A DNA stretch of 64,000 nucleotides from positions 620,001 through 684,000 of the forward strand of contig NZ_JAJQXW010000002.1 of assembly GCF_021246445.1 (NCBI RefSeq), written 5' to 3'. How positions within the stretch are numbered: position 1 is the first letter of the stretch; the number at the start of each line of letters is the position of its first letter. Both the position numbers and the translations under genes were made by a program. The stretch is from Rhabdothermincola salaria. Lineage in GTDB: Bacteria; Actinomycetota; Acidimicrobiia; Acidimicrobiales; Acidimicrobilacustridaceae. Under the pieces are notes generated by a model. It was not told the origin of the DNA. It was given only the letters and a program-made list of their open reading frames with translations, and did no database searches. Below are positions 40,913 to 43,781 of this stretch, piece after piece.

Positions 40913-41521
40913 TCAGCTCTCGGTGGTGACGTTGGGGCGTTCGGCGCCGATGGTGGTGGAGTCGCCGTGTCCGGTGTGGACCACGGTCTCGTCCGGCAGG
41001 GCGAAGAGCCGGGTGGTGATCGAGCGCACGATGGTGGGCCGGTCGCTGAACGAACGCCCGGTCGCGCCCGGGCCGCCGTTGAAGAGCGTGTCGCCGCTGA
41101 ACACCACCGCGTCGGCGGCGTCGTGGAAGCAACAGCCTCCGGGGGAGTGACCGGGGGTGTGCATGACCTCGAGCTCCACGCCACCGGCTCGGAGGCGCTC
41201 GCCGTCGTGGAGCAGCGCGTCGGGGGGCCGATCGGGGTTCACGACCTCCCAGAGCATGAGGTCGTCGGGGTGGATGTGCACCGGTGCGTGCACGGCATCG
41301 GCGAGGGCGGCGGCGCAGTTGATGTGGTCGTTGTGGCCGTGGGTGGCCAGCACCGCCACCACCTTGCGCCCGCCGACGGCGTCGACGATGGGCTGGTGGT
41401 CGTGGGCGGCGTCGATGACGAAGACCTCGTGGTCGTCGCCGACCAGCCAGATGTTGTTGTCGACGTCGAAGGACTGCCCGTCGAGGGTGAAGGTGCCGGA
41501 GGTGACGACTCGCTCGATCAC
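40913..41521 (-). CDS. MBL-fold metallo-hydrolase paired with mscR
   Basis: 202 aa. Metal ligands appear in HGHNDH (61-66), [21 protein letters not shown] and the late [11 protein letters not shown], the glyoxalase II-like subgroup. The partner dehydrogenase overlaps it by 4 nt (GTG 41521 in GTGA). In mycobacteria the same pair (MscR plus an MBL hydrolase) is thought to clear formaldehyde, with the hydrolase cleaving the S-formyl-mycothiol product; that role is inferred here. Confidence 0.88.
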
Positions 41522-42615
41522 GACCGCCCCCCGAGGACCATGACCGAACGCAGGACCTCGCCGCGCTCCATGCGGTGGAAGGCGTCCTCGACGCCGTCGA
41601 TGGCGATCGTCTCCGAGACGAAGCGGTCGAGGTCGAGGCGCCCCTGCAGGTACAGGTCGATGAGCATCGGGAAGTCCCGCGAGGGCAGGCAGTCGCCGTA
41701 CCAACTGGGCTTGAGGCGCCCGCCTCGCCCGAAGAAGTCGATCATCGGCAGGTCGATGCGCATCTCCGGATCGGGGACCCCCACCTGCACGACCGTGCCG
41801 GCCAGGTCACGGGCGTAGAACGCCTGCTCGAACACCTTCGGGTGGCCGACGGCCTCGATGCACACGTCGGCGCCGTTGCCGTCGGTGAGGGCCCTGATGG
41901 CCTCCACCGGATCCGTGCTCGACGCGTCGACCGTGTGGGTGGCGCCGAACGACCGGGCCAGCTCGAGCTTGCCGGGGTCGAGGTCCACCGCGATGACGGT
42001 GGTGGCTCCGGCGAGCCGGGCTCCGGCGACGGCGGCGTCGCCGACCCCGCCGCAGCCGAACACGGCGACGCTGTCGCCCGGACCGACCTCTCCGGTGAAC
42101 AGGGCGGCGCCGAGGCCGGCCATGACCCCGCAGCCGAGCAGCCCGGCTGCCTCGGGACGGGCCGCGGGGTCCACGGGCGTGCACTGCCCGGCGGCCACCA
42201 GCGTCTTCTCGGCGAAGGCGCCGATGCCGAGCGCCGGGCTCAGCTCGGTGCCGTCGGCGAGGGCCATCTTCTGGGTGGCGTTGTGGGTGGCGAAGCAGTA
42301 CTGGGGTCGACCCCGCCGGCAGGCCCGACAGTTGCCGCACACCGCCCGCCAGTTGAGGACGACGTAGTCGCCCGGCGCCACCTGCTCGACGTCCGGGCCG
42401 ACCGCCTCGACGATCCCGGCGGCCTCGTGGCCGAGCAGGTACGGGAACTCGTCGCCGATGGCGCCCAGCTTGTAGTGCAGGTCGGTGTGGCAGACCCCGC
42501 AGGCCTGCACGGCCACGAGCGCCTCACCGGGTCCCGGGTCCGGCACGACGATCGTCTCGACGGTGGCAGGGGCGTCCTTGGCCCGCACCACCACTCCTCG
42601 CACCTCGTGGGGCAT
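41518..42615 (-). CDS. mscR: Zinc-dependent alcohol/S-(hydroxymethyl)mycothiol dehydrogenase-like
   Basis: 365 aa medium-chain dehydrogenase. Catalytic zinc ligands: C42 in CGVCHTD and H63-E64 in GHEAAG; structural zinc: C93, C96, C99, C107. The nucleotide fold is [14 protein letters not shown]. Similarity to MscR and the MBL partner support NAD-linked oxidation of the formaldehyde-mycothiol adduct or S-nitrosomycothiol reduction. ATG 42615 has GGGAGGAC upstream. The tRNA-Sec gene ends 26 bp upstream, on the same strand. Confidence 0.85.
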
Positions 42616-42641
42616 GTGTCCTCCCGGGTCGCTGGGCTCGG

Positions 42642-42737
42642 TGGCGGAGGTGGACGGGAATCGAACCCGCCGTGCAGGGATCGCCTGCACCACCCGCTTT
42701 GAAGGCGGGGGCTGCCACCAGGCCAGCAGACACCTCC
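42642..42737 (-). tRNA. selC: tRNA-Sec (anticodon UCA)
   Basis: 96 nt including an encoded CCA. Read on the minus strand: acceptor GGAGGTG pairs with CACCTCC, discriminator G, then CCA. The anticodon arm is CCCGC-CTTCAAA-GCGGG with anticodon TCA. The long variable arm GTGCAGG-cgat-CCTGCAC (7 bp) and TTCGATT T-loop are as in bacterial selenocysteine tRNAs, whose size (E. coli about 95 nt) it matches. It implies that this genome decodes UGA as selenocysteine; selA, selB, selD and a selenoprotein are not in this window. Confidence 0.95.
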
Positions 42738-42744
42738 GCCCGGG

Positions 42745-42750
42745 ACCCTA
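42745..42750 (-). promoter_or_regulatory. -10 box of tRNA-Sec
   Basis: TAGGGT on the minus strand, 7 nt before the mature tRNA 5' end, so the transcript may need no 5' leader removal. Confidence 0.5.
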
Positions 42751-42865
42751 CCGGTCCGATCCCAGGCGGTCGGGCTCGAACCGCGGGGTGGCGTCGAGCC
42801 GTCGGCCGGGGGTGCGATCACGCTCGGTCGGGCGCGGGCCACTCGCTCGGTGGCGAGGCGCGCCC

Positions 42866-42871
42866 TATGCT
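42866..42871 (+). promoter_or_regulatory. -10 box for 24-aa micro-ORF
   Basis: TATGCT, 6 nt before ATG 42878. Confidence 0.45.
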
Positions 42872-42877
42872 CTCCCC

Positions 42878-42952
42878 ATGAAGAAGCTCCTCGTCATCGT
42901 CGTCGTCCTCGCCCTCGCCGCCTTCGCGGTCAAGAAGCTGCAGGACGCCTGA
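42878..42952 (+). CDS. 24-aa membrane micropeptide (DLW-39-like N-terminus)
   Basis: It encodes MKKLLVIVVVLALAAFAVKK followed by LQDA: one hydrophobic helix between basic ends. The beginning resembles the small actinobacterial DLW-39 proteins (about 39 residues), but it stops before their DLW segment. ATG 42878 follows a TATGCT box by 6 nt. Its 3' end overlaps the convergent HAD gene by 23 bp. Function unknown. Confidence 0.5.
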   Translation: MKKLLVIVVVLALAAFAVKKLQDA

Positions 42953-43781
42953 CCCACCCGGCGGGCCGTCGCGTCGGGGGCCGTCGGGCTCCGGTCGCAC
43001 GGCGGCGGCGCAGCACCCACCACCCGGCCGTCGCCCCCAGCGCGCCCCCAGCCACGGCGGCTGCGGTGAGCGCCACGCGTCCCGGGCCCGGCATGGGCAC
43101 CCGATCGCCCAGGGGGACGATGGTGTGGAACTGGAGGACCTCCCAGCCCCGCGCCCGGGCTTCACGGGCCAGGGCCCGGTCGGGGTTCACGGCCACGGGA
43201 TGGCCGACGCAGCCCAGCATGGGCAGGTCGGTGGCGGAGTCCGAGTAGGCGTAGCTGGCCTCCAGGTCGATGCCGTCGCGCTCGGCCACGGCTTCGATGG
43301 CGTCGACCTTGAAGGGCCCGTAGGCGTAGAAGTCGACCTCCCCCGTGTAGCGGCCCTGGGCGTCGACGGACGCCCGGCTGGCGATGGACTCGTCCACCCC
43401 GAGGAAGCGCCCGAGGGGCTCGACGATCTCCTCCGGTGACGCCGACACGAGGTAGACGCGGCGCCCCGCGGCCCGGTGCTCTCGGATCAGGGTCAGGGCC
43501 TCGTCGTAGATGATCGGCTCGATCACGTCGGGCAGGGTGTCGGCGACGAGCGCGCCGATGAGCGAGCGGTCCCAGCCCTTGGTGATGCGCAGGGCCGACT
43601 CGCGGAAGCGCAGCAGCCGGGCCTCGTCGGCGCCGAGGTAGCGAAAGACCAGGCCGCTCCACACCGCCTTGGCCAACAGGCGCCGGTCGATCATGCCTGC
43701 ACGGCGCAGCGGGCGGCCGAACGCCACCATCGACGCCTTGGCGATCACCGTCTTGTCCAGGTCGAAGAAGGCCGCCTCCAC
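42930..43781 (-). CDS. HAD-IB family phosphatase (SerB-like) with C-terminal helix
   Basis: 283 aa. Motif I FFDLDKT (nucleophile D7, D9), motif II YLVSASPEEI, and motif III SYAYSDSATDLPML are in order with the helical cap between I and II, typical of the phosphoserine/lysophosphatidate phosphatase-like HAD-IB group. A C-terminal hydrophobic helix and basic tail (about 235-270) suggest membrane attachment and perhaps a lipid phosphate substrate. GTG 43781 lies 6 nt after a TACCCT box. Confidence 0.88.
   Translation of the reverse strand: MEAAFFDLDKTVIAKASMVAFGRPLRRAGMIDRRLLAKAVWSGLVFRYLGADEARLLRFRESALRITKGWDRSLIGALVADTLPDVIEPIIYDEALTLIREHRAAGRRVYLVSASPEEIVEPLGRFLGVDESIASRASVDAQGRYTGEVDFYAYGPFKVDAIEAVAERDGIDLEASYAYSDSATDLPMLGCVGHPVAVNPDRALAREARARGWEVLQFHTIVPLGDRVPMPGPGRVALTAAAVAGGALGATAGWWVLRRRRATGARRPPTRRPAGWVRRPAAS

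Follow-up and report, generated by a model that had tools for sequence, protein, structure and literature searches.

In bacteria, the 5′ ends of tRNAs are generally regarded as the work of RNase P. The human gene for tRNA[Ser]Sec (TRNAU1) is transcribed from upstream promoter elements into a precursor that has no 5′ leader and undergoes processing only at its 3′ end (PMC6627462). In Nanoarchaeum equitans, which has no RNase P, strict promoter placement makes the transcription of all tRNAs start at their first nucleotide and yields tRNAs with a 5′-triphosphate (PMC10100707); it is also the organism cited for leaderless tRNAs in a review on protein-only RNase P (PMC10941002). No bacterial leaderless tRNA appeared among the matches listed for open-licence literature on leaders and start sites, of which titles and the beginnings of abstracts were covered, and this is weak evidence of absence. 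Leaderless mRNAs have been reported in Propionibacterium acnes, whose promoters carry a TAnnnT box together with a weakly conserved −35 element (PMC3848588).

In a 64-kb stretch of DNA from Rhabdothermincola salaria (64,000 nt, hereafter the window), the geometry of actinobacterial leaderless mRNAs, a TANNNT box followed after 6–7 nt by the first functional base, recurs in front of selC, the gene for tRNA-Sec. The first base here is that of a tRNA, and the effect would be on 5′ maturation rather than on translation initiation. The tRNA is the same one as in the human system, although there RNA polymerase III works with a TATA box, a PSE and a DSE, whereas here the element is a putative bacterial −10 box, and the likeness would be convergent. 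In contrast to Nanoarchaeum, where all tRNAs are leaderless, the arrangement would concern tRNA-Sec and part of the tRNA-Ser genes; short leaders apparently remain on most of the other tRNAs that have a visible box. E. coli selC resembles the window gene in encoding a bacterial tRNA-Sec with a UCA anticodon, a long variable arm and an encoded CCA. In E. coli K-12, however, TATAAT stands 31 nt before G1, which implies a leader if this box is used, whereas the distance in the window gene is 7 nt.

Results

The tRNA-Sec gene and its fold

ARAGORN finds a sole tRNA in the window, a tRNA-Sec of 96 nt with a UCA anticodon (42642..42737, reverse strand). The gene scores 70.6 bits with the Rfam model RF01852, whose gathering threshold is 47. 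This threshold alone is not decisive, as a tRNA-Ser encoded elsewhere in the genome exceeds it too (48.7 bits, E 1.4e-8). The variable-arm stem is 7 bp in the predicted fold and, because the gene ends in ..CTCCGCCA, the CCA is encoded. The hallmarks of a bacterial tRNA-Sec (UCA anticodon, long variable arm, G73 and CCA) are all present. A preliminary description, written from the letters of the DNA, had proposed a tRNA of this length, anticodon, variable arm and 3′ end, and the gene finder, the Sec-specific covariance model and the fold all bear it out.

The acceptor and T domains of tRNA-Sec together span 12–13 bp, usually divided 8+5, and variants with a 7-bp acceptor have been reported (PMC5330540). 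In the window tRNA this domain comprises 13 bp, predicted as 7+6 rather than in the usual division. Position 8 faces C66 as a U·C mismatch, so that the eighth pair of the 8-bp acceptor stem of E. coli selC has no equivalent here, and G48 is able to pair with C66. The eighth acceptor pair is lost in 92 of the 101 genes of the non-redundant set described below, position 8 and C66 being U·C in 73 and A·C in 19, and a 12-nt (7+5) type is apparent in seven of the 101. The 7+6 fold was considered as a covarying structure and rejected, because G48 is conserved even where position 8 pairs with 66. A wider set was used for anchoring tRNA-Sec genes; the script missed 17 of its 147 loci, and no overall rate was drawn from it.

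A putative −10 box seven nucleotides before the tRNA

With G1 of the tRNA at 42737 on the reverse strand, the hexamer TAGGGT (42745..42750, reverse strand, read from 42750 to 42745) ends exactly 7 nt before the mature 5′ end, as the preliminary description had stated. It belongs to the TANNNT class of −10 boxes, and the intervening spacer, or discriminator, is CCCGGGC (42738..42744, reverse strand), with C as base −1. A scan of 42400–43000 with the two-hexamer sigma-70 consensus gave no promoter and no −35 element is recognisable there, so the claim of a promoter rests on the −10 box. The commonest sigma-70 spacing is one nucleotide less than the 7 intervening nucleotides found here, and a start at −1 is for that reason conceivable.

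Neighbouring genes

Downstream of selC lies mscR (41518..42615, reverse strand), encoding S-(hydroxymethyl)mycothiol dehydrogenase, a mycothiol-dependent formaldehyde dehydrogenase (TIGR03451, 652.5 bits against a cut-off of 512.9), with the Shine-Dalgarno-like sequence GGGAGG (42620..42625, reverse strand) before its ATG. This ATG is 26 nt past the CCA of the tRNA, there is no TA dinucleotide from G1 to the ATG, and no terminator-like site was found in 42400–43000; selC and mscR are therefore probably carried on one transcript, and the expression of mscR may depend on the tRNA-Sec promoter. The order selC–mscR occurs again in a locus of the same genus (L052, with a gap of 183 nt) and in L159. 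An mscR-type gene was seen after selC in no further locus, within flanks that were often only 500 nt long.

Upstream, a gene for a HAD-family hydrolase (42930..43781, reverse strand; PF12710) lies 192 nt from selC on the same strand, and by tblastn 23 more of the fetched tRNA-Sec loci contain a homologue. Divergent from selC there is an open reading frame for a membrane-type peptide of 24 residues (MKKLLVIVVVLALAAFAVKKLQDA; 42878–42952, forward strand), which matches no Pfam family above cut-off. TATGCT stands 6 nt before its ATG, and L052 and L159 have comparable MKK starts in the DNA upstream of their selC.

The spacing is conserved among tRNA-Sec genes

The sample of relatives comprised 124 tRNA-Sec genes, namely that of the window and 123 from searches of the family, class and order. 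All genes found in the family were taken; the rest were chosen by score or picked by hand, mostly one per genus or family, and the hand-picking preceded any view of the upstream DNA. ARAGORN called all 124 as tRNA-Sec with UCA, but trimmed the start by 1–2 nt in ten of them, and these were re-anchored on the start GG[AG]GG[TC]G. Two genes were dropped as short or containing N, and another 21 because their upstream 40 nt shared at least 75% identity, which left a non-redundant set of 101.

The distance between TANNNT and G1 is exactly 7 nt in 61 of these 101 genes of the class, as against 6 nt in one and 8 nt in four, and the other distances (0–5 and 9–30 nt) hold a mean of 1.07 genes and a maximum of 4. 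When the 101 upstream regions were shuffled 200 times, the 7-nt spacing arose in 0.9 genes on average and in three at most. Base −1 is C or T in every one of the 61. At the level of families, the 7-nt spacing occurs in one gene or more in 31 of 46 and in the majority of the genes in 26 of 46; in the organism's own family the box ends 7 nt before G1 in all five tRNA-Sec genes.

The exact spacing is absent from the other 40 relatives, some of which have a more distant box. A purine occupies −1 in 23 of these 40, ten of the 23 reading AG. The spacing is missing from all five non-redundant genes of family f74 and from all three of family f29, where the box, if visible, is 12–15 nt away. Given the 40 genes that lack the exact spacing and the 23 with a purine at −1, a leader seems to be tolerated in some lineages.

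Outside the class, the tally covers 29 labelled genes among 80 matches listed. For the 25 tRNA-Sec genes from Actinomycetota the distance is 7 nt in ten, 6 nt in three, 8 nt in three and 10–11 nt in three, and six have no box; the five from Streptomyces show 10–11 nt in three and no box in two. The 7-nt spacing occurs in none of the four alphaproteobacterial genes. The 7-nt placement of this putative promoter extends over a large part of one bacterial class.

Other tRNAs mostly have a different spacing

Distances were also taken in the organism's own genome, where 45 tRNAs besides tRNA-Sec are listed and 35 of them were read. The box lies 7 nt away in two, both tRNA-Ser, and 6 nt away in one tRNA-Lys; in 16 the nearest box is at 9–13 nt, and 13 have none within 30 nt. 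Three further genomes contributed 79 of their 135 listed tRNAs, with the long-arm types (tRNA-Ser and tRNA-Leu) deliberately included. Here the distance is 7 nt in six, the mode is 11 nt and 26 have no box. These genomes were picked for having a tRNA-Sec with the 7-nt spacing, and thus test the other tRNAs and not the frequency of the spacing in tRNA-Sec. Pooled over the four genomes, the 7-nt spacing is found in eight of 114 other tRNAs (mode 11 nt) against 61 of 101 tRNA-Sec (Fisher P 6.6e-18), a value that overstates the evidence, as related genomes are not independent, and for which the family count above is the safer measure.

Among the non-Sec tRNAs, the spacing is concentrated in tRNA-Ser, with five of 14 at 7 nt against three of the 100 others (P 6e-4, computed with five of 14; the tRNA-Ser of L222 had been trimmed by one base, and its corrected distance of 8 nt lowers the tally to four of 14). 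The tRNA-Ser genes in question are those at C2:168634 and C4:252284 in the own genome and those of L218, L222 and L233. There is thus a hint in these sequences that serine-charged tRNAs share the placement. Of the tRNAs that fell by chance within the relatives' loci and passed the filter none had the 7-nt spacing, but these number five, too few for a control.

Start codons show the same geometry

The distance from TANNNT to a start codon served as a calibration, in which ATG was counted only for frames of at least 50 codons. In the DNA of the own genome, ATG follows the box 11 times at 6 nt and 13 times at 7 nt, whereas each distance from 12 to 30 nt has 1.26 on average, and it is also above background at 8, 9 and 10 nt (5, 8 and 4). 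GTG follows seven times at 6 nt and ten times at 7 nt, against 2.05 per distance. Because TANNNT with ATG or GTG 6–7 nt further on is enriched in this genome, a first G placed 7 nt past the presumed box is a usual geometry here, the same as at selC.

The peak is weaker in the relatives' DNA, with 72 ATG at 6 nt and 61 at 7 nt against 22, and 40 GTG at 6 nt and 48 at 7 nt against 25. Larger GTG counts occur elsewhere (49 at 11 nt and up to 75 beyond 12 nt), and GTG triplets within the tRNA-Sec genes of the fetched loci could account for these. Two genes of selenocysteine metabolism and use also look leaderless: selA starts with GTG 7 nt after tatcct (L011:162), and the candidate selenoprotein gene described below starts with ATG 6 nt after TACGCT.

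The selenocysteine pathway and a candidate selenoprotein

The window gene is a genuine tRNA-Sec in a bacterium with the whole Sec pathway. Adjacent selA and selB genes (TIGR00474, 403.1 bits; TIGR00475, 286.3 bits) lie at G000:C4:200161-203309, and selD (TIGR00476, 364.8 bits), whose sequence reads as the cysteine form, lies at C1:1793059. The three sel genes that the preliminary description named as partners to look for are thus all in the genome. It had also taken the tRNA to imply selenoproteins, pointing to in-frame UGA codons in fdhA-like genes. The genome search covered the families PF00384, PF02627 and PF00578. The suggestion of fdhA-like genes failed: none of the eight PF00384 matches contains an in-frame stop in an assembly rated 97.8% complete, and a Sec formate dehydrogenase was rejected as the selenoprotein of this genome. 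We take these matches to be YdeP-like, NuoG-like or molybdopterin oxidoreductases without Sec. An AhpD-like selenoprotein was likewise rejected, as the two PF02627 matches in the genome have no stop. PF00578 (AhpC-TSA; peroxiredoxin/TlpA fold) has 13 matches, one of them with an in-frame UGA.

This ResA/TlpA-like gene (L402:1072-2169, reverse strand; on C1 near 803,600–804,000 in the own genome) encodes 366 residues from the chosen start and has the active site WSSWUGC, the UGA standing at the U of W..WUGC. It scores 51.9 bits against PF00578 (cut-off 26) and 199.3 bits (E 1.1e-58) against NF041054, 'ResA-like WAxxUGC'. The latter lies below the curated cut-off of 300, so the gene is described only as ResA/TlpA-like, and it may represent a divergent subfamily. 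A 'UGC-containing TlpA disulfide reductase family' is listed in the selenoprotein table of a review (PMC13188914). Behind the UGA there is a SECIS-like hairpin of 5 bp whose GGUCU loop begins at nt 24; in fdhF of E. coli a loop with these letters begins at nt 22. The hairpin is part of the minimum-energy fold at 54 and 60 nt but not at 39–51 nt, and among the 1795 TGA triplets of the window and of L010 and L011 a single one is followed by such a hairpin. On this sequence evidence the gene is likely to be a selenoprotein of this genome, in keeping with what the tRNA had been taken to imply.

A scan for read-through in the window, L010, L011, L012 and L014 gave three candidates, one in L014 and two in the window, and the latter two were rejected, being judged to be adjacent genes that share a frame. 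In a search for conserved UGA codons near the relatives' tRNA-Sec, the best 60 of 501 matches were for the most part artefacts consisting of tRNA sequence. Sec formate dehydrogenases (..NQARIUHS.. and similar) lie near tRNA-Sec in at least ten actinobacterial loci, for example in Streptomyces, Mycobacterium and Pseudonocardia. Such a formate dehydrogenase, with a read-through UGA (..QAR[ILV]UHS..), was observed within the 8-kb stretch around tRNA-Sec in L276, L277, L285, L295, L297, L332, L335, L341, L367 and L373.

For the distribution of tRNA-Sec, RF01852 was applied at E ≤ 1e-9, a stricter value chosen because the tRNA-Ser of this genome passes the cut-off of the model. By this measure tRNA-Sec is present in five of 37 genomes from the family, this organism's among them, in 175 of 298 sampled genomes of the order, in 246 of 395 of the class and in 206 of 396 of the phylum. 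Selenocysteine use had been called patchy in this lineage; that holds for the family but not for the class, which is rich in tRNA-Sec.

Discussion

In our reading, transcription of selC starts at G1, and tRNA-Sec would be made without a 5′ leader through the placement of its promoter; we put the probability of this at about 0.8. That the transcript could begin at the tRNA itself had been suggested in the preliminary description, and the suggestion gains support from the conserved spacing with its pyrimidine at −1, from the spacing of other tRNAs and from the start codons. The housekeeping holoenzyme would recognise TANNNT, with no clear −35 element, and leave 7 nt, and a pyrimidine at −1 followed by a purine at +1 would set the start at G1. 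We infer that the primary transcript would be pppG1..., carrying no leader and having no need of RNase P. On its 3′ side it would continue toward mscR, and a cut after the CCA would be required, freeing both. The tRNA would then be used as usual, passing from SerRS to SelA and SelB for insertion at the UGA of the ResA/TlpA-like protein.

The same promoter could instead be used with a start one to a few nucleotides upstream of G1, in which case RNase P would trim a minimal leader. Across the four genomes the other tRNAs that have a box mostly show it at 9–13 nt, which implies leaders of about 2–6 nt, and some relatives of the tRNA-Sec gene have boxes further off. Yet a pyrimidine occupies −1 wherever the box is 7 nt away, GTG start codons in the own genome peak at 7 nt, and a harmless leader would not be expected to leave a peak at one distance alone; we consider a short leader improbable, if the most serious competitor to a start at G1.

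We give much less credence to the view that the box is no real promoter and that tRNA-Sec is cut from a longer transcript starting before the HAD gene or elsewhere. The HAD gene does lie on the same strand close upstream, with homologues near tRNA-Sec elsewhere, and the stretch around selC lacks a terminator-like site, but an unused box would have no reason to keep TANNNT at the same exact distance in members of 31 of 46 families. Least credible of all is that GC-rich DNA produced the likeness by chance. One TANNNT taken singly is a weak motif, but for the set of relatives chance is refuted by the shuffles, which never approach the 61 genes observed.

A broader proposal builds on the start at G1, and we offer it tentatively, at odds a little short of even. 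In most Acidimicrobiia and in several other actinobacterial groups, tRNA-Sec, and in part tRNA-Ser, would be dedicated leaderless tRNAs that bypass RNase P and keep a distinguishing 5′-triphosphate. The finding raises the questions of whether the unusual acceptor/T domain makes tRNA-Sec a poor substrate of RNase P, and whether the 5′-triphosphate is important for SelA, for SelB or for stability. If the reading is true, there would be a bacterial tRNA independent of RNase P, its promoter held at a leader-abolishing spacing in members of dozens of families. The leaderless tRNA would be the same one in bacteria and in humans, and the bacterial gene would be an independently reached counterpart of the leaderless human tRNA-Sec.
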